This document shows, piece by piece, positions 2,658-29,257 of a stretch of 34,467 nucleotides of DNA. The position numbers were made by a program, and so were the translations under genes. The stretch's first letter is position 1. Each line of letters opens with the position of its first letter. The stretch is from a bacterium. GTDB taxonomy: Bacteria; Bacteroidota; Rhodothermia; Rhodothermales; UBA10348. The notes beneath the pieces were generated by a model. The model was not told the origin of the DNA, ran no database searches, and worked only from the letters and a program-made list of their open reading frames with translations. The stretch lies in contig JABMOI010000139.1 of assembly GCA_013204185.1 (NCBI GenBank), forward strand, positions 1 through 34,467, in the 5' to 3' direction.

Positions 2658-3845
2658 ATGTGGGAAGATCTTATCCAGTCTGAATCAAAAGGAAAACGTA
2701 GTGCAGAAGACCTGTCATGGTTTCCTGACACCCACATTAAGATGCCGGCCTATGTTCATTCTGGGGATGACCACTGGGATGCAACAAGACAGGATGCAAA
2801 ACCGGATGCTGTCCCTACATCGTCGTCCAGGTACCTAGCGCTCTCAGCCACTGAAAACAACGGCGTACTGCTTCTTCAAGCCCGTAAAAGCTCGCCGAAC
2901 GATTCGACTAATCTGGCTGAGCATTCCATCAAATGGATTTCGCCCTACCGCCAATTCCAACCGTCAAGAGAAGCAACTGCTGCCCAAGCTCACTTGTATG
3001 ACTGCTGGACTTCAAAGCTGATTGGAAACGAACATGCCCATATCTCAGGCCCCCCAGCCGTAGACGCCTATTTCTGGGACCATTTAGGCGCAGGATCCAC
3101 AACTCAGTTGGCCCTCATGCTTTGGTCCGCCAATATGTGGATGCAACGCGAAAAGACACCTGAATTCTGCATTCTTCCTGTTCGGACACAATTCAATTCT
3201 GAAACAGCAAAGTTGAGAGCGGCTCGGGTCCTTTTGAATCATTTGGTGAGTCTGTACGGATCGCTGCAAAGTGAAACAAAAGCGGCTAACGAGATGAGAT
3301 GGAATGGGAAACTGCTCGCCGTTACTTCTATGCACACGCTGAGCGCGGTTGACCCCGCTAACAACATGGTGCGCAACACAATATCGGCGGTAGCCAGCCT
3401 GTGCGGCGGTGCCGATGTTTTGGCAATTCAGCCATGGAATGTGTTTGAAATGGGCTATTCAGACCCGGAAGCGGCATTGTTGTCAGAGAACCTTTACCAT
3501 TTGTTGATTGATGAAGGCCGGCTCGGTGATGTTGCAGATCCGCTTTCCGGTTCCTACTTCATCGAGTCCTTAACCGGAAAGATGGTTGAAGCAGCATGGA
3601 CCTTGTTTCTAAGACTGAAAGATGAGTCTATAGAATCCATTCAGGCCTTGCTCCGGGATGAACTATTTCCGGAGGACAGGAAATTTTTCCGAGAAGGTGA
3701 ATCTGAATCAGGAGTCCGTCAGGTCATTGGCGAAACCCTTTATGTTGACGCTGAACGAACCGAGGTAGCGCGCTCTGCCTCTGCGTTCCCTCTGATTGAC
3801 CCTTTTGATTTTGAACCGCGCATTTCGCCTGAGGTGGCTTTATGA
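2658..3845 (+). CDS. mutA: Methylmalonyl-CoA mutase small (beta) subunit, compact form
   Basis: The non-catalytic partner of MutB in the heterodimeric adenosylcobalamin enzyme interconverting succinyl-CoA and (R)-methylmalonyl-CoA. At 395 residues it covers only the TIM-barrel-like part. Family landmarks include the opening [90 protein letters not shown]. It stops soon after the barrel and lacks the degenerate cobalamin-binding-like C-terminal domain of the roughly 620-640-residue actinobacterial MutA. Shorter beta subunits are common in Bacteroidota, but this one is at the short end. Its TGA overlaps the mutB ATG (ATGA), implying translational coupling and equal subunit supply. No internal frameshift was seen. 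Confidence 0.9.
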
Positions 3846-5905
3846 GTAAGCCTAACTTTTCCGTTTTCCCTCAAGGCTCCACAAAGCCAAAGGCAACTTT
3901 GGAGCTTAATCATCTTGGAAGTCTTCCCGGACAGGCGCCATTTACGCGAGGAATCTATGCCAGCATGTATACCTCGCGGCCTTGGACCGTTCGGCAATAT
4001 GCCGGGTTTTCGACCGCCGAGGAGTCTAATGCCTTTTACAAACGAAACTTAGAAGCTGGGCAGAAAGGACTATCCGTTGCGTTTGATTTGGCAACACATC
4101 GAGGATACGACTCAGACCATGAACGCGTAACGGGCGACGTTGGGATGGCTGGCGTAGCTATTGATTCCGTCGAAGACATGAAGGTGTTGTTCGAGGGCAT
4201 TCCGTTGTCTTCGATGAGTGTTTCTATGACCATGAACGGGGCGGTTCTTCCCATTATGGCATTTTTTATCGTAGCTGCCCAAGAGCAAGGCGTTTCGCCG
4301 AAGGATCTAGCGGGGACCATTCAGAATGACATCCTGAAGGAGTTCATGGTACGGAACACCTTTATCTACCCTCCTGCCCCCTCAATGCGCATTGTAAGCG
4401 ATATCATGCGCTATGCGGCTCACAACATGCCCCGATTTAATGCGATTAGCGTAAGCGGATATCATATGCTAGAGGCCGGCGCCTCCCCCGACCTTGAATT
4501 GGCATATACGCTTTCCGACGGCCTCGAATATGTGCGCGCCGCCCTGTCGCAAGGTTTAGATATTGATGAGTTTGCGCCCCGCGTGTCCTTCTTTTTTGGG
4601 ATCGGGATGAACCTGTTTGTTGAAGCGGCTAAACTTAGGGCTGCTCGCACAATTTGGTCTGAACTCATGGCAGAGTTCAAGCCCCAAAACCCGAAGACGC
4701 TTATGCTTCGAACCCATTGCCAGACATCAGGTTGGTCGCTTACCGCTCAAGATCCGTACAACAACGTCGGGCGTACGTGCGTCGAAGCAATGGCCGCCGT
4801 ACTGGGGCACACTCAATCGCTGCATACAAACGCCCTGGATGAGGCAATTGCTCTACCGACTGATGCCTCTGCTAAGATTGCTCGGAATACCCAGCTGATT
4901 TTGCAGCACGAAACGGATTTAACTCGGGTAGTGGACCCTCTTGGTGGATCGCAGCACGTCGAAAGCCTAACTGCCGACTTAATATCTCAGGCACGGGTTC
5001 ACATGGCAGAAATCGAAAAACTTGGTGGGATGGCGCAGGCAATCTCGTTGGGAATTCCGAAACAACGCATCGAACAATCTGCAGCACGTCGTCAAGCACG
5101 GATCGATTCAGGTAAAGATCTGATTGTGGGCATAAACTCCTATCAACCGAAGTCAAAACAAAAACTGGATGTCCGTCAAGTCGACAATTCAAAGGTGAGA
5201 TCTGCTCAAGTTGGCAGATTGAACGAGCTAAAAACCTCGCGCGACGCGGCCGGGGTTCAAAAAGCACTTGAAAACCTTATCGCGGTCGCCCGTTCAGAAG
5301 GCAGCCCGCTCATGGAGGCTTGCATTGAAGCTGCTCGAGCCAGAGCAACGCTGGGTGAAATATCCTCGGCGCTCGAGTCCGTATTCAGCCGCCACACAGC
5401 ACAAACTTCTTCATTTTCTGGTGTATACTCTTCAGAGTATGGTGGAAATCAATCGTTAGATCACGTGACTTCTCTTTCCGATCAATTTGTAGATCTGGTG
5501 GGTAGGCGTCCCCGGATTTTGATAGCCAAGCTAGGACAGGACGGGCACGATCGTGGCGCGAGGGTCATTGCTACGGCGTTCGCCGACATGGGCTTTGACG
5601 TAGACATTGGACCTCTTTTCCAAACCCCAAAAGAAACCGCCGTTCAAGCACTCGAAAACGACGTTCATGTTGTGGGTGTTTCTAGTTTGGCAGGTGGTCA
5701 TAAGACACTCATTCCCGAGTTGATCAATGCGCTCAAAGACCTTAATCGGCCAGATATTTTAGTCGTTGCCGGAGGTGTAATTCCGGACCAAGATATACCC
5801 TCTTTGAAATCGGCCGGGGTTTCCCATGTTTTTGGACCAGGTACTGTGATTCCGGAAGCTGCCTCCGACCTGCTAAACACGTTGCTCAAAAACCAATCTG
5901 CCTGA
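3842..5905 (+). CDS. mutB: Methylmalonyl-CoA mutase large (alpha) catalytic subunit
   Basis: Catalytic subunit of adenosylcobalamin-dependent methylmalonyl-CoA mutase, used for propionyl-CoA breakdown or, in reverse, propionate formation. The 687-residue protein has an N-terminal TIM barrel with family signatures [47 protein letters not shown], and [20 protein letters not shown]. The C-terminal B12 domain has the base-off/His-on motif D567-x-H569-x-x-G572, followed by S614-S615-L616 and the GG pair at 618-619. These are the cobalt-ligating and nucleotide-loop residues, so the enzyme appears competent. It overlaps mutA by 4 bp (ATGA), with GAGGTGG just upstream as a possible ribosome-binding site, and is followed 4 bp later by meaB. 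Length is slightly below the typical 700-730 residues. Confidence 0.96.
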
Positions 5906-5909
5906 CACG

Positions 5910-6947
5910 ATGAAAGACCACAAGGCACGGTTGGACGAAGCGGCCATAAAGGGTGACGAAAGCACGGATAACCGTGTAAATCAACTTGCAAATCAGGTCA
6001 TTGAAGGCAGTCGAAGCGCCTTGGCACAAGCCATCACGCTCCTTGAAAGCAGCAGAGCCTCAGACGTCGACCTTAAATCAGCGTTGCTTGAACGATTTCA
6101 AAGAAAATCGGGTAGCGCTATTCGCCTCGCCGTTACCGGCGCACCTGGAGTCGGGAAGAGTTCTTTGATAGAATTACTTGGGTTGTCTCTGGTTAAGAGA
6201 GGGCAAAAGATTGCCGTACTCGCCATTGACCCCTCCAGCTCCCGGTCGGGCGGAAGCATTCTGGGTGACAAAACGCGGATGACTCATCTTAGTAAATCTG
6301 CTGGTGCTTTCATTCGGCCTTCTCCAACTTCTGGCGTGCTTGGCGGCGTAGCAGACTCTACACGAGAAACTATAATGGCTTGCGAGGCAGCTGGTTACGA
6401 CTGGGTCCTCGTGGAAACCGTAGGCGTAGGCCAGTCCGAAACTACAGTTGCTTCGCTTACAGATATCGTTTTGTTCACCACAATTGCAGGAAGTGGCGAT
6501 TCCTTGCAGGGCATCAAACGAGGTATCTTGGAATGGGTGGATGTGGTTGCTGTCAATAAATCTGACGGGAATAACATAGCGGCAAGCGCCTCTTTCGCTA
6601 CTGAATTATCTGCCGCCTTGCACTTACTGCACGGCTCAGACACCCCGCCCTCTGTTCTACAAACATCGGCCCTTTCTGACGTAGGAATAGACGAACTACT
6701 CACATCAATCGATGCCATCATCAGTGACCGCCGCCGAACCGGTGCTTGGGATATCCGGAGAAATAAACAACTCGCCCAGTGGTTCGACCACGCGGTTTCA
6801 AACTCTATACTTAAACAGATCAAGCAGAACGAGTCGCTCTCATCCCTAAAGGAAAAGCTCAAGAATGACGTTGCCCTCGGAAACGTTCATCCGTTCGCCG
6901 CTGCCCAAATGTTCGTAAGACAACTCCTGCCCAAAGACGAAAACTAG
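5910..6947 (+). CDS. meaB: Methylmalonyl-CoA mutase-associated G-protein chaperone MeaB
   Basis: A G3E-family P-loop GTPase (MeaB/ArgK, human MMAA) that gates cofactor loading onto the mutase and protects it from inactivation. The 345-residue protein has an N-terminal helical region, Walker A G77-APGVGKSS, the Mg/switch stretch LAIDPSSSRSGGSILGDKTRM, DWVLVETVGVGQSE (Walker B/switch III area), and NKSDGNN as the guanine-specificity NKxD motif. A C-terminal helical dimerisation arm ends at residue 345. Starting 4 bp after mutB and being the last gene of the unit, it is clearly dedicated to this mutase. No methylmalonyl-CoA epimerase or propionyl-CoA carboxylase gene is in the window. It ends tail-to-tail, 8 bp from gltX. 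Confidence 0.95.
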   Translation: MKDHKARLDEAAIKGDESTDNRVNQLANQVIEGSRSALAQAITLLESSRASDVDLKSALLERFQRKSGSAIRLAVTGAPGVGKSSLIELLGLSLVKRGQKIAVLAIDPSSSRSGGSILGDKTRMTHLSKSAGAFIRPSPTSGVLGGVADSTRETIMACEAAGYDWVLVETVGVGQSETTVASLTDIVLFTTIAGSGDSLQGIKRGILEWVDVVAVNKSDGNNIAASASFATELSAALHLLHGSDTPPSVLQTSALSDVGIDELLTSIDAIISDRRRTGAWDIRRNKQLAQWFDHAVSNSILKQIKQNESLSSLKEKLKNDVALGNVHPFAAAQMFVRQLLPKDEN

Positions 6948-8548: not shown

Positions 8549-9091
8549 TCACTCTCTACCTGGCAAACCCGATTCGGATTGATCCGCTTCGATCGTTAAG
8601 CCAGGCTCAAAAACGTAGATATAGGATTGTAAGACACGGGTTTGTGGTGTGTCGAACGTTACATGCTCCTCTTCTTGGGCAATAAACCGCGTGGAGCCAT
8701 TTGTCCCCGACATTGGAAGCAGCAAGCCAATTACAAAGACCGCAGTTACCGCAGCCAAAGCAGATCGAATAGAGACGGACCGATTTGCTCTCCAGAGGGG
8801 CTGCCGGTCTTCTGCTCTATTGAACCGCTCATTCCCCTGCTTTAGCTCTGCTAATCTCGCAAAAAATCGATCGTCTGCCGAAGGTGGAAGGGCAATAATT
8901 TCCTGACGGCTCATACGCCGAAATAACATGACGGCCTCCATCTGAGAACGTAACGTGGCGTCAGTCGCAAGTTGACCAAATAACGCTGTTTGTTTTGCAG
9001 AAGGAAGTTCTCCGTCCAAATAGAGGTTCAAATCCTCTTCAAACGGTAAAAATTCAGACTCTAACAATTTTTCTGATACCTGTGCACTCAT
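8549..9091 (-). CDS. Putative membrane-bound anti-sigma factor for the upstream ECF sigma
   Basis: Probably holds the adjacent sigma factor inactive at the inner membrane. The 180-residue protein has an N-terminal cytoplasmic domain (about 1-105) with the anti-sigma-like helix FEEDLNLYLDGELP. One transmembrane helix follows at about 109-127 (SALAAVTAVFVIGLLLP), then a periplasmic tail of about 50 residues. There are no Cys residues and no HxxxCxxC, so it is not a zinc (ZAS-type) anti-sigma factor. The start is the ATG at 9089-9091, 1 bp after the sigma stop codon. An in-frame TTG at 9107-9109 would add six residues inside the sigma gene and is less likely. The call rests on position, topology and the short N-terminal motif, since this family is poorly conserved. 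Confidence 0.75.
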   Translation of the reverse strand: MSAQVSEKLLESEFLPFEEDLNLYLDGELPSAKQTALFGQLATDATLRSQMEAVMLFRRMSRQEIIALPPSADDRFFARLAELKQGNERFNRAEDRQPLWRANRSVSIRSALAAVTAVFVIGLLLPMSGTNGSTRFIAQEEEHVTFDTPQTRVLQSYIYVFEPGLTIEADQSESGLPGRE

Positions 9092-9092
9092 A

Positions 9093-9734
9093 CTATCTTT
9101 TAACTTCAATTGAAGCCGCTACCACGCCTCGTTCTGGTCTGTTTTGTGTGACATTGACTGCGCCGGACGCAGCCGGATCCAAAACATTAATTCCATATTG
9201 TCCGACAACCGATTCCATTAATTGAGCAAGTTTTTTCCGTGCTTTGAAAAGCCGTGACTTTACTGCACTTATTGAAGTCCGAGTAATGGACGCTATTTCT
9301 TCGTATGAGAGGTTTTGATACTCTCGAAGAATGATTATCTCACGGTAGTCAGGTTTCAGAGATTCTAAGAACTTAGAAACGAACTGGACTTGTTCAGATT
9401 TCTCCATTTCGGAAAAAGGCGTGTCATGAGATACTAAAAGACCTGATGGGTCGTCCTTCAGCCCAACATGTTTTCCGCTTCGACGAATTGAATTCAAACA
9501 CTGGTTTCTGGCAATCGTGAATAGCCAAGACTTGAAAGCACTCGTTTTTAGCAGCCTATCTCTGTTCTCATATATCCGTAAGAAGGTTTCTTGCATCACA
9601 TCTTCAGCTGCATCTGAATCCAGAAGCATCTTGTAACAAAAGGAATAGACAGGCCCTTTGAAACGATTGTAGATACCTACAAACGCGAATTCATCTCCAG
9701 CCTGAAATGATTCTATGAGGGCATATTCCGTCAT
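9093..9734 (-). CDS. ECF-type RNA polymerase sigma factor (sigma-E-like)
   Basis: Extracytoplasmic-function sigma factor directing RNA polymerase to stress promoters. From the ATG at 9734 it has 213 residues. Region 2 spans about 17-85 (FCYKMLLDSDAAEDVMQETF; FKSWLFTIARNQCLNSIR). Region 4 spans about 118-170 (LKPDYREIIILREYQNLSYEEIA, then the helix-turn-helix TSISAVKSRLFKARKKL). A GTG at 9809 extends the frame by 25 residues without family similarity, so 9734 is preferred. The anti-sigma gene follows after 1 bp, so the two are co-transcribed. A sigmaE-like motif at 9813-9840 could be its own promoter. It is divergent from the foldase genes at 9999-14415, a plausible target set. The C-terminal 30 residues are not part of a known domain. 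Confidence 0.92.
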   Translation of the reverse strand: MTEYALIESFQAGDEFAFVGIYNRFKGPVYSFCYKMLLDSDAAEDVMQETFLRIYENRDRLLKTSAFKSWLFTIARNQCLNSIRRSGKHVGLKDDPSGLLVSHDTPFSEMEKSEQVQFVSKFLESLKPDYREIIILREYQNLSYEEIASITRTSISAVKSRLFKARKKLAQLMESVVGQYGINVLDPAASGAVNVTQNRPERGVVAASIEVKR

Positions 9735-9812
9735 GAAAGCTTGCTCAATATGTGCACTTTCCGATGTGTTACGTTGCGCCGCGGACAGATCGAACCAACC
9801 CGCAGACACCTA

Positions 9813-9840
9813 TATGACAATGTGGCTTCTGCAAAGTTGC
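9813..9840 (-). promoter_or_regulatory. Candidate ECF (sigmaE-like) promoter for the sigma/anti-sigma operon
   Basis: On the minus strand GCAACTT (9840-9834), then a 15-nt spacer, then GTCATA (9818-9813). This is close to the enterobacterial sigmaE pattern GGAACTT-N15/16-GTCnnA and has the right spacing. It lies about 80 nt before the sigma start codon, as expected for autoregulation. Bacteroidota ECF specificities vary, so this is a motif match only. Confidence 0.4.
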
Positions 9841-9903
9841 TCTAAAAAGTCGATGAATCTTAGCCTTTTTTACTTTTGTCGGAGCGTTGTCTTGTCGGAT
9901 TTC

Positions 9904-9931
9904 GGAACCAAGTCCTCTCGGATTGCGTGGA
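9904..9931 (+). promoter_or_regulatory. Weak candidate ECF promoter for the foldase operon
   Basis: GGAACCA (9904-9910), about 15 nt, then CGTGGA (9926-9931), 67 bp before the lipoprotein-foldase ATG. The -35 half resembles GGAAC; the -10 half is only a partial match. An 8-bp direct repeat TTGTCGGA (9876-9883 and 9892-9899) lies just upstream. Together they hint at regulation of the divergent operon but are not strong. Confidence 0.22.
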
Positions 9932-9998
9932 TGCGCCAGTATTTTGACCATTCAACGATGCGCGTTGGCTTTACTTGCCGCGTCGAACCGAAACACAC

Positions 9999-12041
9999 AT
10001 GCTACCCTATCGCTTCTTTTTGGCCAGTTTGTTTGCACTGGCTCTGTTTGTTACATCGTGTACCAGCTCGACAAATATTCAGGAAAGTCAGTCTGGATCT
10101 GCACTTAAAGGCCCTCTCGCCATTGTGAACGGTCAGTCCATTGATGTCGAAGAGTTTACTCATCAGTTTTCTAGAACGGTATCCAACTTAGATGAAGTTA
10201 GATTCGATTCCCTAGAGGCGTTAGAGGATTTTCTCACCCGCTATGTAGACTTCAAAGTCAAAGTGCTTGAAGCAAGAGAGGCCAAGTACCAATTTCTTCC
10301 TGAACTTGTTGACGAGATAGGTCAATACAAAACTCAGTTGGCTCGTCCGTTTTTACTTGAACGAAAAGTTTTTGAGCCCCTTGTACGGCAAATGTATGAG
10401 CGCCGGTCTGAAGCTGTAGATGCAAGTCACATTCTGATCACCGTTGCAGAAGATGCTTCCCCTGCAGATACCTTGGCAGCTTACGGCCAAGTTTCCAGTC
10501 TACGTGATTCTGTTCTAGCTGGAGTCGACTTTTCTTCCTTGGCTGCTCGGTATTCAATGGATCCGAGCGCAAAAGGAGCTCCTGGTTCGCCCGGCGCTGG
10601 CGGCAACCTAGGCTTCTTTGGTGGAGGCCGCATGGTCGACTCCTTCGAAAACCAAGCGTTTAAAACGCCGGTAGATGGAGTTTCTGAAATATTCAGGTCA
10701 CAGTTCGGCTACCACATATTAAAAGTGAATGACCGCATGGAAATGCCGGATGATCGTATTTTGGCTCACATCATGGTTCGTCCTCGCGGTCAAACCGCAG
10801 CAGATGTCGCAGACGCGGATCAGCGACTCTCTAAAGTGACGAGTAGATTGGCAGCCGGGGAGGACTTTGCAGTTGTTGCGAACGATCTTTCTGACGATCG
10901 GCAATCTGCGACCAACGGTGGTCAACTCGGACTCATCTCATTTGACGCAGGCTTGCCCTTTTCGTTTAGAGATGCGGGATTTGGCTTAACAAAGGTAGGT
11001 GAATATGTAGGTCCTGTTCAAACTCCGTTTGGCTCTCATTTCATCAAGCTCATTGAAATTCAGCCGTTGAAGTCGTTCGAAGAGGAGTATGAGAACCTCA
11101 AAAGCCAAGTGAATCGACTTCCCCGTGCTGCGGCTGCCGAAAAGGCCTTCGCCGAAGATTTGCGTGATCAAATGGGCTACTGGATTGATTCCACTCGAAT
11201 TAGCTTGTGGAGTTCGGCAATGAGCCAAGACTCGCTCTTTAGAATGTTGGCTTCTAAATCCTTTTCGCCAGAGGATTCAGCGCACGTCTTATTATCCTTA
11301 GGTGATCGCGCTTATACCTCGTATCAGTTTGCTGAATACGTTGCTTCAAACAAGCTTCCTCAAGGTGAACAATCACAAGCTCGTCTGTTCTCCATTGCCG
11401 AATCGTTTCTGAATTCAGAGGCCATAAATCACGAAATCGACCTCTTGGAGACTCGAGAACCAGAGTTTGCACAGACCATGCAAGACTTTAGAGATGGACT
11501 TATCCTCTTTCGGCTCATGGAGGACTCTGTTTGGACGGCTGCTGCCTCTGATTCGACTGGCCTAAAAGCATATTTCGAATCAAATAAGGCGAACTACAGC
11601 TTCCCGGACCGCATTCGGGTCGTTAGTTTTTCGGCCGTAACAGATTCTCTGGTCAATGGGGTCGTTCAAAGATACCAGACCGAATCTGGCGAAGAGGCCC
11701 TTTCGTGGGCCAAAGAAGCGGCGAATATGGCCATACGAATCGACACGGCCTACGTTGAAGAATTATCTGGGTCCATTTATGACCAAGTGTTTGATTTGAA
11801 AGAAGGCCAAATCACCCCTTCAACAGCATATAATAGAGGGTTTATTGCGCTGGCACATGCTGGTGTGGACGCCGCGCATCCAATGACCTACGATGAGGCC
11901 AGAGCGATTGTGCTGAATGCTTACCAAGCCGATATAGAAGCTCGATTGCTAAAGAAATTGCACAAGAAATATCAGGTCCGACTATTTCCCGAGCGCCTCG
12001 AAACTCTTATTCAATCGTCCCAAACGGCTGCAAAAGAGTAA
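9999..12041 (+). CDS. Lipoprotein peptidyl-prolyl cis-trans isomerase with two PpiC domains
   Basis: A large periplasmic, lipid-anchored foldase expected to help outer-membrane or surface proteins fold. From the ATG at 9999 it has 680 residues. The N-terminus MLPYRFFLASLFALALFVTSC is a lipoprotein signal with its cysteine at 21; this decides the start over an in-frame TTG at 9975. A SurA/PrsA-like helical region (about 35-135) is followed by one PpiC/parvulin domain at 142-245 (ASHILITV ... FGYHILKVND) and a second at about 253-350 (HIMVRPRG ... FGSHFIKLIE). A long C-terminal part (350-680) of unclear fold may be a further chaperone region. The next foldase starts 4 bp after its stop codon. 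It is divergent from the ECF sigma gene, suggesting envelope-stress control. Confidence 0.88.
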   Translation: MLPYRFFLASLFALALFVTSCTSSTNIQESQSGSALKGPLAIVNGQSIDVEEFTHQFSRTVSNLDEVRFDSLEALEDFLTRYVDFKVKVLEAREAKYQFLPELVDEIGQYKTQLARPFLLERKVFEPLVRQMYERRSEAVDASHILITVAEDASPADTLAAYGQVSSLRDSVLAGVDFSSLAARYSMDPSAKGAPGSPGAGGNLGFFGGGRMVDSFENQAFKTPVDGVSEIFRSQFGYHILKVNDRMEMPDDRILAHIMVRPRGQTAADVADADQRLSKVTSRLAAGEDFAVVANDLSDDRQSATNGGQLGLISFDAGLPFSFRDAGFGLTKVGEYVGPVQTPFGSHFIKLIEIQPLKSFEEEYENLKSQVNRLPRAAAAEKAFAEDLRDQMGYWIDSTRISLWSSAMSQDSLFRMLASKSFSPEDSAHVLLSLGDRAYTSYQFAEYVASNKLPQGEQSQARLFSIAESFLNSEAINHEIDLLETREPEFAQTMQDFRDGLILFRLMEDSVWTAAASDSTGLKAYFESNKANYSFPDRIRVVSFSAVTDSLVNGVVQRYQTESGEEALSWAKEAANMAIRIDTAYVEELSGSIYDQVFDLKEGQITPSTAYNRGFIALAHAGVDAAHPMTYDEARAIVLNAYQADIEARLLKKLHKKYQVRLFPERLETLIQSSQTAAKE

Positions 12042-12045
12042 TTCC

Positions 12046-12894
12046 ATGAAATCATGCTCGATCGGGGCTTTATACTTATTGGTCTCCCTTTTGGGTATGG
12101 GGTGCGGAAAAGAGACGTATCCCGTCGATTTTGTCGCTCGAGTTGGATCTTCGGTATTGACACCAGAAGATGTTCGGCGATCGCTTCAAGACCAAACAGC
12201 CTTTGTCGATTCTGCCGACGCAGCTTCTCAAATTATAGAGCGATGGGTTACGAACGAACTGCTGTTTCAAGAGGCGCTCAGCCAAGGACTCAAATCAGAC
12301 GAGCAGGTTCAGCGACTTCTTGCTGACAATGAGCGGTCCGTTCTAATTAGCGCGTTGGTCAATAAAATGACGACCGAAGATCTTGAAGGCGGGCCAGACG
12401 ATGACGCAATCAGGACGTATTATGAACAAAACCGGGACCAACTTGCCCTGAGAGAGCCATACGTACAGGTAAGGCATCTTGCATTTTCTTCGCCAGATTC
12501 TGCAGCTATATTCAGAAAGTCGGTCTCTGATATGGGTCTTGGTGATCTCGGCAGGGCCCAGTTTAGTCGATTAGCATCGGTCTACGGAGAAGACGGTCCC
12601 AATCCGGACACGTATTACCCTCAAAGCCAATTGTTTTCAACGATTCCTGGTCTTGTCGAGGCCGTTAGCACGATGCGGCCGGGGGAAACCCTGCCAGTTG
12701 TGAACGACTCGGGCCGGTACCACGTGATTCAGCTGGTACGCAGACTTGAAATAGGCACCGTGCCAGCAATGGAGCTCATTATAGATGATTTGCGTGCAAA
12801 AGTGTCTATACAACTGCGGAAACAGTTGTATGCACGACAGGTTCAACAACTCCGAACTCGGGCGCAGTCAAGAGATGAATTGGAAATAAAGTAG
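12046..12894 (+). CDS. Putative lipoprotein peptidyl-prolyl isomerase (PpiC type)
   Basis: A second foldase of 282 residues, 4 bp after the first. The N-terminus MKSCSIGALYLLVSLLGMGCG reads as a short lipoprotein signal with Cys20. The -3 residue is Gly, so the lipobox is imperfect. A SurA-like N-terminal helical segment (about 35-110) contains ERWVTNELLFQEALSQGL. The PpiC-like domain starts near 140 (VQVRHLAF, His144) and ends near YHVIQLVRRLE at about 235. The catalytic-site sequence is more divergent than in the first gene, so it may act mainly as a chaperone. It is probably co-transcribed with its upstream neighbour. The 171-bp gap before the next gene holds a hairpin and a tandem repeat. 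Confidence 0.78.
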   Translation: MKSCSIGALYLLVSLLGMGCGKETYPVDFVARVGSSVLTPEDVRRSLQDQTAFVDSADAASQIIERWVTNELLFQEALSQGLKSDEQVQRLLADNERSVLISALVNKMTTEDLEGGPDDDAIRTYYEQNRDQLALREPYVQVRHLAFSSPDSAAIFRKSVSDMGLGDLGRAQFSRLASVYGEDGPNPDTYYPQSQLFSTIPGLVEAVSTMRPGETLPVVNDSGRYHVIQLVRRLEIGTVPAMELIIDDLRAKVSIQLRKQLYARQVQQLRTRAQSRDELEIK

Positions 12895-12944
12895 TCCATT
12901 CGTCCCCCCGAAATACTATTCAAGAAAGCCGTTCGTTTCTACTG

Positions 12945-12976
12945 GTGCGGTCACTTTTTTAACTCCACGATCGCAC
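12945..12976 (+). repeat. Inverted repeat upstream of surA-like gene
   Basis: GTGCGGTC (12945-12952) pairs with GATCGCAC (12969-12976), 8 bp with one G-U pair, around a 16-nt loop containing six T residues. The T-run is inside the loop, so this is not a normal intrinsic terminator. It directly precedes the 12-bp tandem repeat and may be part of a leader structure. Confidence 0.3.
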
Positions 12977-13023
12977 AGTATTTGAAATTGTATTTGAAAC
13001 TGTATTTGAAACTGTATTTGAAC
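12976..13023 (+). repeat. Four tandem 12-bp repeats in the surA-like leader
   Basis: Four head-to-tail copies of a 12-bp unit, close to CTGTATTTGAAA: 12976-12987 (CAGTATTTGAAA), 12988-12999 (TTGTATTTGAAA), 13000-13011 (CTGTATTTGAAA) and 13012-13023 (CTGTATTTGAAC). They end 42 bp before the likely start at 13066. In frame with the gene they would read as repeated KLYL, which does not look like a signal peptide. Each unit holds TGTATTTG or a near variant, one base off the Bacteroidota -7 consensus TAnnTTTG. The tract could change copy number by slippage. Confidence 0.75.
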
Positions 13024-13065
13024 TTGAAACCCTTCTTCTGCTTTCAAAAATCTCCTGCCACTCGA

Positions 13066-14415
13066 ATGACGTTATCTGTCCGAATTACCCTTTTGGTTGC
13101 CTTTATTCTAAGCGTATTCCCTTCGCAAAGTTTTGCTCAGGACGAACGAGTCTTAGATGAGATTGTAGCCGTTGTTGGAAGCAATATTATCCTCCAGTCC
13201 GAAGTCGATGGGTACGTTCTTGGAGTTATTACTCAGCAACAATTGAGTTACTCAGATGATCTCTGGAAAAGTGCTCTAGACCAACTCATCAACGAAAAAA
13301 TCTTGGTGATCCACGCGAAAAGGGATACCAACTTGGTCGTAACGGATCAGGAAGTGGATCAAGGACTTGACTCGCGCATCAATGCCATGCAAGCTCAATT
13401 TGGTGGACAGGCAAGGCTAGAAGAACTGTATGGAAAGTCGGTCCTCGAGATTAAAGCAGAACTCAGAGAAGATTATCGGGATCAGATTCTGGCTGAAAAC
13501 TTCAGAAGGCAAAAATTAGGCTCCATCAAAGCAACGCCAACAGATGTTCAGGCCTGGTTTGACCTCTTCCCCACCGATTCGCTACCAACGCTGCCAGATA
13601 TGGTCCGCGTCTCTCATCTCGTTCGCATGCCAATCGTAACGCAAGCGGCGAGAAACGAGGCCTTGGAAATAATTACAGCAATTCGTGATTCAGTTATTGC
13701 CGGTGTAATCGAAATGGAAGACATGGCTGAGCTATTTTCGGACGATCCAGGTTCAGCCGAAAAAGGTGGGTTATATGAAGACATGTCCCTTGGTGAAGTC
13801 GTGCCGGAATTTGCGGCAGTAGCTGCGCGCAGTCCAATTGGTGCGTATTCCCGAGTATTCGAAACTCAGTTTGGTCTCCATTTCTTGAGAGTCAACGCAC
13901 GCCGAGGGGACAAAATTGATTACAATCATATTTTGATTTCATTCGATGAGCGTAAAGTGGATCCAGCTCCAGCTCTTGCTTATTTGACAACCATGCGTGA
14001 TTCGGTGTTAAATAAAGGCGCTTCATTCTATGCACTTGCTGCACAAAACTCCGAAGAGGAAGTATCCAAAGCCAGAGGAGGACGCGTTGCCGATCCTCAA
14101 TCAGGAGAGCGAAACTTGTATATGGAGGCTCTTGGCGCTTTGTGGCAGAAAACGCTTCTAACGATGGAAGAAGGCGATGTTTCTGAGCCAAGTGAAGTGC
14201 AACTGATCGATGGAAGGCGGGCTTTTCACATCGTTAAGTTAGAGGCCCGCATTCCGAGTCACCGGGTCGATATCGTTTCGGACTACAAATTAATTTCTGA
14301 AAAGGCCCTTCAGTATAAACAAGCTGATGAAATGGAAGAATGGCTTTCTGAGTTAAAGAAATCGGTGTATATCGATCTTCGCGGAAAAGCACGCACCCTT
14401 GCTGAGAACAACTAG
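13066..14415 (+). CDS. surA: SurA-like periplasmic chaperone/peptidyl-prolyl isomerase
   Basis: Periplasmic chaperone that escorts outer-membrane proteins to the BAM machinery. From the ATG at 13066 it has 449 residues, with a Sec signal peptide of about 24 residues ending SQSFAQ. The SurA N-terminal domain follows at about 25-160 (LDEIVAVVGSNIILQSEVD; LINEKILVIHAKRD). The first parvulin domain lies at about 178-278 (VSHLV, His184; FGLHFLRVN) and the second at about 285-390 (YNHILISF, His288; FHIVKLEAR). In-frame TTG codons upstream, within the 12-bp repeat, would give a longer form without a proper signal; 13066 is preferred. It is the third foldase in a row. The gene symbol is used by similarity of architecture; direct equivalence to E. 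coli SurA is inferred. Confidence 0.88.
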   Translation: MTLSVRITLLVAFILSVFPSQSFAQDERVLDEIVAVVGSNIILQSEVDGYVLGVITQQQLSYSDDLWKSALDQLINEKILVIHAKRDTNLVVTDQEVDQGLDSRINAMQAQFGGQARLEELYGKSVLEIKAELREDYRDQILAENFRRQKLGSIKATPTDVQAWFDLFPTDSLPTLPDMVRVSHLVRMPIVTQAARNEALEIITAIRDSVIAGVIEMEDMAELFSDDPGSAEKGGLYEDMSLGEVVPEFAAVAARSPIGAYSRVFETQFGLHFLRVNARRGDKIDYNHILISFDERKVDPAPALAYLTTMRDSVLNKGASFYALAAQNSEEEVSKARGGRVADPQSGERNLYMEALGALWQKTLLTMEEGDVSEPSEVQLIDGRRAFHIVKLEARIPSHRVDIVSDYKLISEKALQYKQADEMEEWLSELKKSVYIDLRGKARTLAENN

Positions 14416-14503
14416 AGCATGAAGTCGAGATAAACCTTGTCTCGTACGCCTCTCCGTTAGTATGTTGAAGAGCTGAACTAACCTATCTAACCCACTGTCC
14501 TAC

Positions 14504-15493
14504 ATGGAAATTACGACCTCCCCTCAAACGGTAGAAGAGCTTCACGCCGGTTACAAAACGCTGGCCAATGAAGTCGGTAAAGTAATCGTTGGACAAGAGC
14601 ATATCATTCAGCAGATTTTTATCAGCATGATATGCCGAGGTCACGCTTTGTTAGTAGGTGTTCCTGGATTAGCAAAGACCCTGCTTATCCATACCATCGC
14701 GGATGTCATGGACCTGGACTTTTCTAGGATTCAATTCACGCCGGACCTGATGCCCAGTGATATAACTGGGACTGAGATTATCGAGGAAGATGCCACTACC
14801 GGACGGCGCCAGTTTAAATTCGTCAAAGGACCTGTATTCGCGAATGTGGTGTTGGCGGATGAAATAAACCGTACACCGCCAAAAACTCAAGCTGCATTGC
14901 TAGAAGCCATGCAGGAGCACAGAGTGACTGCGGCAGGCCATACATATTCTCTTCCAGAGCCATTCTTTGTTTTGGCAACTCAGAACCCAATTGAACAAGA
15001 AGGCACCTACCCCCTTCCAGAGGCCCAGTTGGACCGTTTTATGTTCAACTTGTGGCTTGACTACCCCACTTTTGATCAAGAAGTTGAGGTAGTTAGGCAG
15101 ACAACCAGTGCATCTAAGCCGCAGCTGAATAACATCATGACGGCAGCCGATATCCAACGATATCAGCAAGTTGTACGCCAGATACCTGTGGCCGACAACG
15201 TAATTGAATATGCCGTTGGATTGGTCAGCAGAACTCGACCAGCTGGAGACAAAGCTCCTGCGTTCGTGAAAGAGTACCTGAACTACGGAGCCGGGCCACG
15301 CGCTTCTCAATACTTGATACTTGGCGCAAAAGCTACGGCGGCTTTAGATGGCCGGCTTACACCGAGCATCAAAGATGTAAATTCCATCGCCGTTTCCGTT
15401 CTGCGTCACCGTATTGTGACTAACTTTAACGCTGAAGCAGAAGGAATCAACTCGGTTGAAATCATCAATCGTCTGTTGAGCTCGGAATCCTAG
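14504..15493 (+). CDS. MoxR-family AAA+ ATPase
   Basis: A MoxR-type AAA+ ATPase, a chaperone-like class often paired with von Willebrand A proteins to mature enzymes or surface systems. The 329-residue length is typical. Walker A is GVPGLAKT at 52-59. Walker B and the following stretch VVLADEINRTPPKTQAALLEAMQEHRVT are almost consensus for the family, and sensor 1 is VLATQNPIEQEGTYPLPEAQLDRF. No DUF58 or VWA partner gene is in the window, which is unusual since these commonly follow moxR. It begins 88 bp after the surA-like gene; that gap has a 5-bp inverted repeat (CGAGA/TCTCG) and no clear terminator. hutF starts 11 bp after its stop. Confidence 0.92.
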   Translation: MEITTSPQTVEELHAGYKTLANEVGKVIVGQEHIIQQIFISMICRGHALLVGVPGLAKTLLIHTIADVMDLDFSRIQFTPDLMPSDITGTEIIEEDATTGRRQFKFVKGPVFANVVLADEINRTPPKTQAALLEAMQEHRVTAAGHTYSLPEPFFVLATQNPIEQEGTYPLPEAQLDRFMFNLWLDYPTFDQEVEVVRQTTSASKPQLNNIMTAADIQRYQQVVRQIPVADNVIEYAVGLVSRTRPAGDKAPAFVKEYLNYGAGPRASQYLILGAKATAALDGRLTPSIKDVNSIAVSVLRHRIVTNFNAEAEGINSVEIINRLLSSES

Positions 15494-25744: not shown

Positions 25745-28700
25745 TCAAAAACGAGCCATAAATTGCACCCGCCCGGTGTGAATTATGGGGCCGTTTGAAG
25801 GTGAACGACCGTCATAGCTAATGGATGACGTTACCACTTCGCTCAGTTGGGCTCTAAAAGAGAGTCCCCAGATCCATGACTTTCCGGGGCCTCTGCCTTC
25901 GGTTAACTGGTAGGTTTGAAGACCTTGAGATAAGCCAGTGATCTGAGCATTTGACCATTCTACCCTTGCCCGAGCGGTCCATCGTGAGGCTACTTGATAT
26001 TGGCCCGTCAATGGAATCTGAACGGCGCTGACCTTTGTATCGTTACGTCTCTCCGTTCGAGCGGCCCACATCAATCCCGACTGAATCATCCAACGGTCCA
26101 TCGGACGAAAAATGACTTCAGGCTGGATTTCGTATCCGTCAATATCAAATGATCGAGATGCATAGGACGCACTCGATATCTCGTTTTTCCTCGTAAGTCT
26201 GGTTGAGGCTGTCCATTTTGAGTTTGGATGGTATCTGACAAACCCTGTTTGTTCGGCCATCTGTGTTTTCTGCAAGCCAGACGAAAGGTCCGAGAAGCCC
26301 CGTACTTCCACCAACGACAGGTCCAGATCCCAGGTGGTATTGGTCGGCATGAGGCTGATGTCTTGAGCCACACGTACGCGTCCATTTACCGTCTGGCCAG
26401 GCGTTCTAAACGTGCCCATTTGCATTAGATAGATGTGAGATCGTACGTCGTCTTTAGACTTTTCTGTTACCTCAAGCGATGTCCCTAGTCCTATGCGGGA
26501 CAACCTGTTACCGCCTCCCCCTCCTGTTCTTCTAAATCGGAATGAGGCGTTTAAGGAGGTGATAGATTCCAATGAGTCAGATGGGAAATAGGTGAGCGCG
26601 TATTCGCCTTCTCCTGGGATTGTCTCGGGTATGAATTCTTCAATTTGGATCACATCGTCCCCATTAAAGTCCTCCCATACATATTGGCCACGTTCCTGCC
26701 CGGTTCGAATGTAAATTTCTTGCATTCGGGCGGACTGTTCCGACTGCACGGAATACGTCCAATTCAACCTGTTTCCGTCCCGTATTTCCCACTCTCCAAT
26801 CAATCCTAGCATGAGTGAGTTGCGCGCGTTAGGCGTCTGGGAAAGGCTGGATTCTGAGCCTGTTCGCCTCCTCAAGCCCAAACTGATCACGGATCGAAGA
26901 GATGACAGTTCGGAAAACGACCACTTTCCTTGAACCGTTTGAATGGAAAGCTGATTTGATCGAAGCAACACTTCGTTCTCAAATCGCTGTTCAATGGTCA
27001 TATTCACATTGTTAGATTCACTTCCAACTAGGCCTGCTACCCGGAATTCGTCGTAGTTTTTGAGTGGTATTTCAGTACTTACTTGAAGCTGATCACCCGA
27101 AAAGCGCTCCGTTTCCCACTCTAATCCTATGTTGTTGAAAACAGACAACTTCCTTTTCGAGAGTCTTGTCAACATGCCTACCCAATCCGACTTTCGCGCA
27201 AGTCTGGAATCTTGACTGGAGACCCACTGGCCTTGCAAATCAATGGAAGGGCGCGTCTGCTCCGGAATGGCCAGCTTCAAGCGAAGCTTATTGGCATCGA
27301 CCACCTGCCCAATATTGAGCCCGTCATAGCCAATTTCGATCGAGCTTGAGTCCCTAGCGAGGATCATCAAAGAGGTTTTATTGCTTCGCTCCGATTGACC
27401 TTCGATCAGACTTTGACTCACAGATTCTGTGGCACGCGTGAGATTCCATTCGCGTTCATATTCAACATCTCTCGTTCGATCAAAGGTAGAAAAATGAGCA
27501 CTCCTACTTCCCCATTCTGTCTCCGCTGAAAATCGAATCCCGTTCCAGCTAATAGGCTTTAAGCTAAACTGAACACGAGAAGCCGTTCCAGCATCATCTA
27601 GTGCATCAAGGGCTGACAACGTGTTCTGATCGTATTTAGATGTCGCATATTCTACGTTGACGGACGCAAAGCGAAAACCGGTAGATTTGAAGCGTAAACC
27701 CAAGAGCTCCTTTCGGCCCGGCGCAGTTAAGGGCTTTACGGAATCGTAATCCCCATTGCCCTGTCCAACATAGGTGAAAACGATGCCGTTGGAAGTGGAG
27801 GCCGTGGTTGAATTGCCGGCGCGCGTGTAGGAGCCCTTGCCAGAGCCAACGCGCGTAAATGTCACTCTATAAACTAACTCATCGAGTGAAGGAGTTCGGT
27901 CTACTGCCTTAAAAGCAGGCATGCCGTCAAACCCTGTTATACTGAAGTATTGAGTAAATAGCGCTTGAGGATCGTATGCGACCTGGACTGCGCTACTTTT
28001 TAGAACTAACTCGTCCCCCGCTTGGCTAATTAGAACGGAGTCTTGAGCAGTAAACCCAAGCTCTTCAGCAAAATTATCCCCATCTGCCTCTCGTATGGCC
28101 GACACGCCAAATGAAAAGCCCAGTCCGCTTCGCGATAACGGCAGGGAAACTTCTGATTCTGCCGCCAGAAGGCTTCTGGTATATTGATTAGTTGTATACT
28201 CGAATTCGACCCTCACACGACTATCCGATCCCACCAACCGGGCGGGTGTAAATGTTATTTCCGCCGTGGTGTAATCAATAATGTAGTCCGCGTCGAACCC
28301 TCGTTCCTGCAATTGCCCATCGATGTAAATTCGCTCAGTGCCAGGCAAGACAAGAATGAACCGTTCGGACGTTTCTCCTTCAAGCCTGTAAGGACCCTGA
28401 ACACCTTCTCGAATGGATATGAACTGTGACCGATATTTCCCTTTTGATGTGCTTCCAATGATTTGAAGCTCACCTTTGGAACGCCCGCTTGAGGATAGAC
28501 TGAACGGGTTTGTAGCCAGTTCAACCCCTTGAATTCGGCGCTTTACGCGCGTGAAATTGCCTTTTTGTAAGGAGATATCAATATCTCCAAGTGAAACGCG
28601 CCCCTTGCCCGATTCTAAGGCGATATACACCTGATCAAACTGATCTAGTCTACTGGTTGTGCCTTCGGGCAAAAGCGGACTGTCCTCATCCGTTAAAACA

Positions 28701-29257
28701 GCTCGGACGTTGATGCTATCCGTTATCTCCCCTTCTACTTCCAACCTTAATCCCGATTCCACAGACGCATCTCGGCCCGTCCCAGACATCACTCCTCGGG
28801 TAATGGACCCTGAACTCCGGATTCGCTGAGAAATCCGTGCCGCGTTCACCCTCGTTTTGCTACCTAATTCACCCGACTCATCCGATTTCTCCCAGAGTCG
28901 GTACTCCTGCTCTAGGTCAAGCGGGATAAACTGATACGAGGCCACAAATGAGAACGATGAATCTGGCCCAACATCGGTAAACGTGATAAATCCCTGCCGA
29001 AAATCCACAACAAAGGAGGTAACCGGCAGCACCCTACCATTGGACCAAACCTTCAGACTCGATTTTACCAGATATGGACGAATCAGAAACGGCCCACCAC
29101 CCGTGACAAAGAGTGTATCTATTCGAGCAGGTAAAGCAGATTTGTATTCTTTCGAAACGGTGCCTTCTTGGGCCCAAGCCGCTTTTGGTAACCAGAAATG
29201 TAAAAAGCACAACATTCCGCAGATCAATAAGACCACCGACGCTCGCCTTTGGGGCAA
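25745..29257 (-). CDS. Large predicted outer-membrane beta-barrel protein, unnamed
   Basis: I do not recognise a named family. The 1170-residue product has a signal peptide (about 1-29, ending AAWA-QEG) and a beta-rich N-terminal region. That region includes RVSLGDIDISLQKGNFTRVKRRIQG (about 215-240), then EGVQGPYRL and VLPGTERIYIDGQ near 300-330, and DYIIDYTTAEITFTP. The rest is long alternating-pattern sequence ending in VQFMARF, a C-terminal Phe typical of BAM substrates. YVWEDFNGDDVIQIEEF carries an EF-hand-like loop (D863, N865, D867, E874), which recalls loops seen in SprA and related Bacteroidota surface proteins. The start is TTG at 29257 (Met by convention); no ATG gives a full signal. 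An export channel or surface scaffold is possible; the function is unknown. Confidence 0.72.
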   Translation of the reverse strand: MPQRRASVVLLICGMLCFLHFWLPKAAWAQEGTVSKEYKSALPARIDTLFVTGGGPFLIRPYLVKSSLKVWSNGRVLPVTSFVVDFRQGFITFTDVGPDSSFSFVASYQFIPLDLEQEYRLWEKSDESGELGSKTRVNAARISQRIRSSGSITRGVMSGTGRDASVESGLRLEVEGEITDSINVRAVLTDEDSPLLPEGTTSRLDQFDQVYIALESGKGRVSLGDIDISLQKGNFTRVKRRIQGVELATNPFSLSSSGRSKGELQIIGSTSKGKYRSQFISIREGVQGPYRLEGETSERFILVLPGTERIYIDGQLQERGFDADYIIDYTTAEITFTPARLVGSDSRVRVEFEYTTNQYTRSLLAAESEVSLPLSRSGLGFSFGVSAIREADGDNFAEELGFTAQDSVLISQAGDELVLKSSAVQVAYDPQALFTQYFSITGFDGMPAFKAVDRTPSLDELVYRVTFTRVGSGKGSYTRAGNSTTASTSNGIVFTYVGQGNGDYDSVKPLTAPGRKELLGLRFKSTGFRFASVNVEYATSKYDQNTLSALDALDDAGTASRVQFSLKPISWNGIRFSAETEWGSRSAHFSTFDRTRDVEYEREWNLTRATESVSQSLIEGQSERSNKTSLMILARDSSSIEIGYDGLNIGQVVDANKLRLKLAIPEQTRPSIDLQGQWVSSQDSRLARKSDWVGMLTRLSKRKLSVFNNIGLEWETERFSGDQLQVSTEIPLKNYDEFRVAGLVGSESNNVNMTIEQRFENEVLLRSNQLSIQTVQGKWSFSELSSLRSVISLGLRRRTGSESSLSQTPNARNSLMLGLIGEWEIRDGNRLNWTYSVQSEQSARMQEIYIRTGQERGQYVWEDFNGDDVIQIEEFIPETIPGEGEYALTYFPSDSLESITSLNASFRFRRTGGGGGNRLSRIGLGTSLEVTEKSKDDVRSHIYLMQMGTFRTPGQTVNGRVRVAQDISLMPTNTTWDLDLSLVEVRGFSDLSSGLQKTQMAEQTGFVRYHPNSKWTASTRLTRKNEISSASYASRSFDIDGYEIQPEVIFRPMDRWMIQSGLMWAARTERRNDTKVSAVQIPLTGQYQVASRWTARARVEWSNAQITGLSQGLQTYQLTEGRGPGKSWIWGLSFRAQLSEVVTSSISYDGRSPSNGPIIHTGRVQFMARF

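Follow-up and report, generated by a model that had tools for sequence, protein, structure and literature searches.

The 34,467-nucleotide stretch analyzed here, referred to as the window (contig JABMOI010000139.1 of assembly GCA_013204185.1, from a member of the order Rhodothermales, phylum Bacteroidota), encodes an extracytoplasmic function (ECF) sigma factor and a membrane-anchored anti-sigma factor, located head-to-head with three periplasmic foldases of the peptidyl-prolyl isomerase (PPI) type. All five genes had been recognized by a previous reading of the sequence alone (the sequence-only reading), and all five are present. Based on the comparison with related genomes, the pair is likely a TonB-dedicated ECF sigma/anti-sigma system, in which the sigma factor would read a promoter motif termed P1 and thereby drive its own operon, exbB (with exbD) and tonB, while the foldases would not be among its targets. 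If this is true, TonB supply would become a regulated quantity of the cell envelope in this lineage, with a dedicated ECF pair governing a tonB and an exbB of high conservation. In familiar systems, tonB and exbBD are iron-responsive via Fur or occur as accessory copies in siderophore or heme loci.

The P1 motif and the sigma gene

P1 (GCAAC-N17-GTC, usually in the form GCAACTTT) is oriented toward the sigma gene and shows an invariant spacing at this position. Its core was found in 30/31 extracted sigma upstream regions, the exception (G046) being a region cut short by the extraction anchor. A slightly looser scan of four genomes (G002, G007, G017, G020) gave few matches; three of these, in three genomes, were located upstream of exbB (PF01618), with exbD (PF02472) following downstream as shown for G007, and other matches were located upstream of tonB (PF03544).

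The regions upstream of exbB and tonB orthologues were scanned in 60 relatives and in the window's own genome, covering up to 700 bp for exbB and 1500 bp for tonB owing to tandem tonB genes. P1 was present upstream of exbB in 34/35 sigma-positive versus 0/13 sigma-negative genomes (Fisher 7.3e-11, kinship ignored) and upstream of tonB in 28/31 versus 0/14 (Fisher 4.1e-9, kinship ignored). With GCAACTT, the spacing was N17 only, save for two tonB regions at N15. These final counts set aside G003, G041, G011 and G026, of which G003 and G041 show no complete sigma gene because of contig ends; G003 is still counted as sigma-positive in the control-gene, foldase-promoter and tree counts given below, and G041 in the control-gene and foldase P1 counts. 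The exbB counts do not include G033, in which an orthologue region of exbB was missing, and the tonB counts do not include G000, G030, G037, G055 and G056, which had no usable region upstream of tonB; the scan extended to neither gene in G035 and the f4 genomes. Two genomes in which contig ends hide the sigma gene (G011, G003) carry P1 at both exbB and tonB.

As controls, the antisense strand showed no P1 match, and eleven other genes of the locus had P1 upstream in 1/242 sigma-positive and 2/90 sigma-negative rows. On the trees, the presence of the sigma gene changes four times, or five times with G020 included. In 4/4 well-supported independent comparisons, P1 tracks the sigma gene at both exbB and tonB, with none opposed. 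The direction of co-loss is uniform, and two of the sigma-negative genomes, G012 and G020, branch within groups of sigma-positive relatives. This repeated loss of the sigma gene together with its promoters can be regarded as a natural experiment. In a further genome (G024, L092), the sigma gene is split over two adjacent reading frames, which points to a pseudogene, a stop or a fault in the assembly; P1 at exbB and tonB is still kept there.

Several observations weigh against a TonB-dedicated system read from P1. The sigma-positive genome G051 has no P1 at exbB, and the tonB genes of G015, G019 and G022 show GCAACTTT only with off-spacing. There are only four to five independent changes of sigma gene presence (sign test p 0.125), and therefore shared ancestry accounts for part of the small Fisher p-values. 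Genome-wide, P1 occurred 50 times in 13 genomes classed as sigma-positive (including G003) versus 68 matches of a reversed-pattern control; in four sigma-negative genomes there were 2 matches versus 18 of the control, which has a different oligonucleotide make-up. A strict scan of 13 genomes classed as sigma-positive (G003 among them) gave 26 matches outside sigma promoters versus 26 in the control, and genome-wide counts were consequently rejected as evidence for P1. Given this missing excess, the argument for P1 draws on which genes lie downstream of it and on its joint loss with the sigma gene rather than on how often it occurs.

Besides exbB and tonB, 20 of the 22 places at which P1 could not be assigned were examined; the two left out belong to sigma-negative genomes (G028, G038). 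The recurrent additional P1-linked genes encode mostly exported or membrane proteins. In six genomes (G000, G001, G002, G003, G006, G014), P1 lies upstream of a lipoprotein gene with a TonB_C-like domain (Pfam TonB_C 23.2 bits, under the cut-off of 24.6), which is possibly a new TonB-like lipoprotein. A membrane protein of 153-154 amino acids (MASSSRGVQTALQVVLAIAI...) without Pfam match has P1 upstream in G013, G017, G025 and G044 (L381, L383, L379, L243), an FGE-sulfatase-like lipoprotein in G000 and G001, and a Lumazine_bd_2 protein in G000 and G002. Several other P1 matches, located inside reading frames, are probably due to chance. As a separate observation, the members of the lipoprotein family (L387, L391, L394, L384, L385, L247) share the motif IPKGWDGNSxxWWQIGADTTNAFR and a weak TonB_C-like C-terminus.

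The foldase operon and its conserved neighborhood

The window genes were mapped on 60 stretches from relatives. Conservation of the gene order had been named as a check by the sequence-only reading, and throughout Rhodothermales the divergent arrangement gltX / anti-sigma-sigma / PPI-PPI-SurA-MoxR is indeed conserved. Including the window, gltX, anti-sigma gene, sigma gene and first foldase gene occur together in 28 loci, with the pair between gltX and the first foldase; because of this conservation, the arrangement is not due to chance. The foldase-MoxR order is kept in all stretches that are long enough, except for G035, where the second foldase was undetected. The MoxR ATPase represents a further member of the foldase operon, which had been absent from the sequence-only reading. 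Along PPI1-PPI2-SurA-like-MoxR (window positions 9999-15493), it accompanies the periplasmic foldases in nearly all Rhodothermales stretches.

Separation of pair and foldases in close relatives had been named as an observation that would refute the sequence-only reading. They are adjacent in the 28 loci; in 15 other genomes the pair is missing and gltX adjoins the first foldase, the two being 1.6 kb apart in G040. Two genomes of the window's own family, G012 (99% complete) and G020 (96%), lack the pair and keep the foldase operon together with a second promoter-like element, P2. No anti-sigma homologue was found anywhere in G012 or G020, and with the sigma-family profile the best other ECF factor of G020 reached 115.6 bits versus 327.6 for the true gene in G017; the pair is therefore absent from these genomes and has not moved.

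P2 (GGAACC-N15/16-CGT) is oriented toward the first foldase and lies beside P1 in the intergenic region; its conservation upstream of the foldases extends to two families or more. Within 700 bp upstream of the first foldase, P1 was found in 0/33 sigma-positive rows (including G003, of unknown sigma status) and 0/18 sigma-negative rows, and upstream of the SurA-like gene in 0/32 sigma-positive rows. P2, in turn, was detected at the first foldase in 21/33 sigma-positive and 6/18 sigma-negative rows. It is kept without a sigma gene in G012 and G020 as well as in G039, G049 and G058 of another pair-less family, and it is missing in 12/33 sigma-positive rows (G030, G032, G033, G034, G036, G037, G045, G046, G047, G054, G055, G056). 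Since P2 is kept without the pair and missing with it, P1 and P2 behave independently. A strict genome-wide scan for P2 gave no excess over the reversed-pattern control.

A search for the factor reading P2 started from 37 listed sigma matches, of which seven had no locus, and left out 5/30 loci without a match to the sigma profile. None of the 25 sigma genes with readable upstream regions in G002, G017 and G020 showed the full P2 as its own promoter; one sigma gene in G002 has a loose GGAAC-N16-CGT upstream. The CGT box of P2 recalls the -10 box reported for the ECF-type motif SM6 of Flavobacterium psychrophilum (PMC9723704).

Taken together, the foldases are probably conserved neighbors and not targets of the sigma factor. 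The sequence-only reading had suggested a self-contained stress locus for the folding of outer-membrane proteins (OMPs), and had named a search for a shared promoter motif upstream of both operons as a check. These results do not support control of the foldases by the sigma factor: P1 and P2 differ in both boxes, P1 never occurs at the first foldase, P2 is independent of the pair, and P1 leads to tonB and exbB. Adjacency can therefore mislead, as a sigma gene located beside surA-like genes across an entire order appears to control something else.

The anti-sigma factor, distant pairs and the proposed mechanism

As stated by the sequence-only reading, the anti-sigma factor is cysteine-free and single-pass; its one predicted transmembrane helix (residues 114-130) is followed by a tail about 54 residues long. 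It matched no Pfam and no NCBIfam family at 1e-3. A profile of its family, searched against solved structures (PDB), weakly detected DdvA (E 0.0011) and RsiW (E 0.0024), in line with an RsiW-like anti-sigma domain. The zinc-ligand motif H-x3-C-x2-C of zinc-binding anti-sigma (ZAS) proteins is kept in 22/35 relatives and absent in 13, namely in the window protein and 12 relatives. The ligand-free proteins belong on the one hand to the window's genus together with the related genera g5 and g9, and on the other to family f9, so the ligands were probably lost twice. The cysteine-free protein is derived from the zinc-finger type by a local change, which speaks against zinc or a thiol as the signal in this protein. 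The structure model (predicted template modelling score 0.31) is confident only for helices over most of residues 22-68 and for the transmembrane helix, and the tail is predicted to be disordered, with local confidence (pLDDT) near or under 50.

The end of this tail (PGLTIEA in the window) is conserved: 33/35 tails match [PDH][GD]x[TV][IV]E[ASDG] versus 0.1% of shuffled tails, for a pattern chosen after the tails were seen. The two non-matching tails, G004 (PGLMIEA) and G033 (PGIDVEA), are each one position off the pattern. An aromatic-X-aromatic segment lies beside the motif in many relatives. The sequence-only reading had suggested that the tail may act as the sensor; this is plausible, and the linear motif lends it some support.

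Beyond the order, the anti-sigma family profile was searched in 198 genomes of the phylum. Strong matches were confined to Rhodothermales, with one clear outlier (G219, E 6.7e-17); 62 genomes had a match at E 1e-3, and the loci examined beyond Rhodothermales numbered 25. The anti-sigma gene has a sigma homologue as its neighbor in all but one of them (24/25), and in seven (G219, G167, G131, G148, G070, G135, G196) a TonB_C gene (PF03544, over cut-off) follows directly downstream. Four longer distant stretches (G219, G167, G199, G145) contained no foldase or other window gene beyond the pair. The association of this kind of pair with TonB is thus seen independently by gene order outside Rhodothermales and by promoter motif inside.

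The seven distant TonB-linked anti-sigma factors end in LPxVEVxG-like sequences (LPPVEVIG, LPEVEVTG, MPAVEVEG, LPQVDVSG, LPGVEVRA and two looser ones). A pattern for distant tails, chosen after they were seen, was present in 7/7 proteins with a TonB_C neighbor, two of which match only its loosest letters, and in 0/4 short proteins without one; the scoring covered 11 of the 25 proteins, the other 14, longer ones being left out. Both tail motifs resemble published TonB boxes, VDEVVV of SusC Bt1763 (PMC7782687) and LDSLTVLGAGG of HasR (PMC3602595); the latter describes the box as predicted to be unstructured in the free receptor and to form a strand with TonB. This resemblance suggests that the anti-sigma tail touches TonB, a link that we infer post hoc from short sequences and that, for this reason, counts among the points against a TonB-dedicated system.

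According to the proposed mechanism, the sigma factor would recognize P1 and transcribe tonB, exbB(-exbD) and the operon that encodes the pair, and in some genomes it might also drive the TonB_C-like lipoprotein and other exported proteins. Judging from fold and operon order, the membrane-anchored anti-sigma factor would hold the sigma factor inactive, while its disordered periplasmic tail with the TonB-box-like end may sense TonB or a TonB-linked state. Once released, the sigma factor would increase the expression of exbB(D) and tonB along with that of its own gene pair, and the foldase operon would run from its own promoter-like P2, independent of the sigma factor. As the simplest working model, we tentatively propose that the tail reports free TonB or TonB load and closes a supply loop for outer-membrane energy transduction. 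A more specific version is a doubtful proposition at present: the anti-sigma factor might be an inner-membrane protein with a TonB box, whose tail would bind the C-terminal domain of TonB by strand addition, so that free TonB would be measured and tonB/exbB transcription adjusted, in a homeostatic circuit appearing as sigma-anti-sigma-TonB operons in the phylum and reorganized to a scattered regulon in Rhodothermales.

Other explanations must be weighed against a TonB-dedicated pair. The conserved adjacency across many families could mean that the foldase operon, although divergent, is under the control of the sigma factor via P2, forming the OMP-folding stress locus described above, and P2 indeed has an ECF-like geometry (GGAAC-N17-CGT) with a -10 box of the kind reported for F. 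psychrophilum (PMC9723704). However, P2 stays in five genomes without the sigma gene and is missing from a considerable part of the rows with it, and it is unlike P1, which never occurs at the foldase promoter, in both boxes; we therefore regard this explanation as distinctly unlikely.

The same adjacency could place the foldases upstream of the sigma factor. SurA prefers aromatic-X-aromatic segments, and many relatives have one adjoining the motif of the tail; PpiC/SurA-like proteins might hence bind the Y-V-F segment of the tail, and their titration by unfolded OMPs would expose the tail to proteolysis, upon which the sigma factor would raise TonB/ExbB and envelope proteins. This appears unlikely, as most of the distant TonB_C-linked pairs lack the aromatic pair even though their proline/valine segment is retained, no foldase match lies near the pair in G219, and the foldases remain where the pair is lost. 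Given that P1 recognition by this sigma factor is itself deduced, P1 could also be read by another regulator lost together with the pair, which would merely share the motif. We consider this very improbable, because a third, unlinked factor would have had to disappear repeatedly along with the pair, and because P1 is conserved upstream of the sigma gene itself, with ECF-like geometry and invariant spacing.

Comparison with known systems and gene models

Of the systems described so far, PUMA3 and the Has system come closest. PUMA3 of Pseudomonas aeruginosa (VreA-VreI-VreR) likewise combines an ECF sigma/anti-sigma pair with a TonB-like partner and exbB/exbD genes: the C-terminal domain of VreA is modelled as TolA/TonB-like, and exbB2-exbD2 and a PpiC-type PPIase are among the genes that the sigma factor upregulates (PMC2729926). 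Unlike the window system, PUMA3 is presented there as a cell-surface-signalling system, with a signalling domain in VreA (PMC2729926). The window anti-sigma factor has no FecR match in Pfam or NCBIfam, and no TonB-dependent receptor domain was found among the window open reading frames scanned; on both points the pair differs from FecIR-type cell-surface signalling. The predicted regulon is small and centered on tonB/exbB. The Has system of Serratia marcescens resembles the window in that a TonB paralogue gene, hasB, is under a sigma/anti-sigma cascade, but it too is presented as a surface-signalling system, heme-specific and signalled by the receptor HasR (PMC3602595). Here, in contrast, the predicted targets are a tonB and an exbB of high conservation, neither of them linked to the pair.

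With sigma-E/RseA (RpoE), the window shares an ECF sigma factor and a membrane anti-sigma factor, and its sigma factor has a sigma-E factor as best sequence relative in the PDB. The promoter geometry is also akin to that of sigma-E, GGAACTT-N-TCTAA. The sequence-only reading had called the factor sigmaE-like; this holds for the ECF assignment and the envelope-related look, but not for membership in the RpoE equivalog TIGR02939 (85.8 versus a cut-off of 236.15 bits). The anti-sigma factor showed no RseA family match (Pfam, NCBIfam at 1e-3), and unlike in sigma-E/RseA, there is no sign of surA-like genes as targets, P1 being found at PPI1 in 0/33 and at the SurA-like gene in 0/32 rows. The ZAS/RsiW type is related by the profile matches to RsiW and DdvA and by the ligands kept in most relatives, and it is set apart by their loss in the window protein and its 12 relatives. 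In the open-licence literature, searched by title and abstract start, no publication on this pair or on an anti-sigma factor with a TonB box was found, which is not proof of absence.

The ECF assignment is based on Sigma70_r2 (65.9 bits) and Sigma70_r4_2 (60.8 bits), both over the curated Pfam cut-offs, and on TIGR02937 (NCBIfam, 106.1 versus 42.9). The most likely start codon of the sigma factor is ATG 9734 and not GTG 9809, because relatives align from M(N/T)EYxLIESF and the promoter core extends to 9816. For the first foldase, ATG 9999 is most likely the start rather than TTG 9975, since MLPYRFF...VTSC represents a lipobox by inspection; the lipoprotein signals of PPI1 and PPI2 were judged by eye only. 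The coordinates of all features are given in Table 1.

Table 1. Features of the sigma/anti-sigma and foldase locus in the window
Feature	Position	Strand	Remarks
Anti-sigma factor	8549..9109	-	N-terminal anti-sigma domain (zinc-finger type, Cys ligands gone), one transmembrane helix, ~54-residue periplasmic tail ending YVFEPGLTIEA
ECF sigma factor, 213 aa from ATG 9734	9093..9734	-	Listed open reading frame extends to GTG 9809; Pfam; best PDB sequence relatives are sigma-E factors
P1, predicted sigma-operon promoter	9816..9840	-	-35 GCAACTTT at 9833-9840; -10 GTC at 9816-9818
P2, conserved promoter-like element of foldase operon	9904..9929	+	GGAACC-N15-GCGTG; not tied to sigma gene presence
PPI1, predicted lipoprotein PPIase	9999..12041	+	Two PpiC domains and Rotamase_2; listed open reading frame from TTG 9975
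PPI2, predicted lipoprotein, divergent Rotamase_2 domain	12046..12894	+	Pfam
SurA-like protein, two PpiC domains	12982..14415	+	Pfam, NCBIfam
MoxR-type AAA ATPase	14504..15493	+	Pfam; downstream of foldases in relatives too

The three foldases of the sequence-only reading were typed with Pfam (PPI1, listed at 688 amino acids; PPI2, 282 amino acids with Rotamase_2; the SurA-like protein, 477 amino acids). Their PpiC/Rotamase_2 domains were confirmed, and the first two are predicted lipoproteins. The third is only SurA-like: it has two PpiC domains, but PF09312 (SurA_N, 27.3 versus 30.8) and the SurA equivalog NF008038 (54.5 versus 394) remained below cut-off.

Elsewhere in the window, a reading frame of 1170 amino acids on the minus strand (25748-29257) has no Pfam match at 1e-3. 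Positions 2658-6947 encode two methylmalonyl-CoA mutase subunits followed by MeaB, an ordinary arrangement of which parts are kept beside gltX in many relatives.

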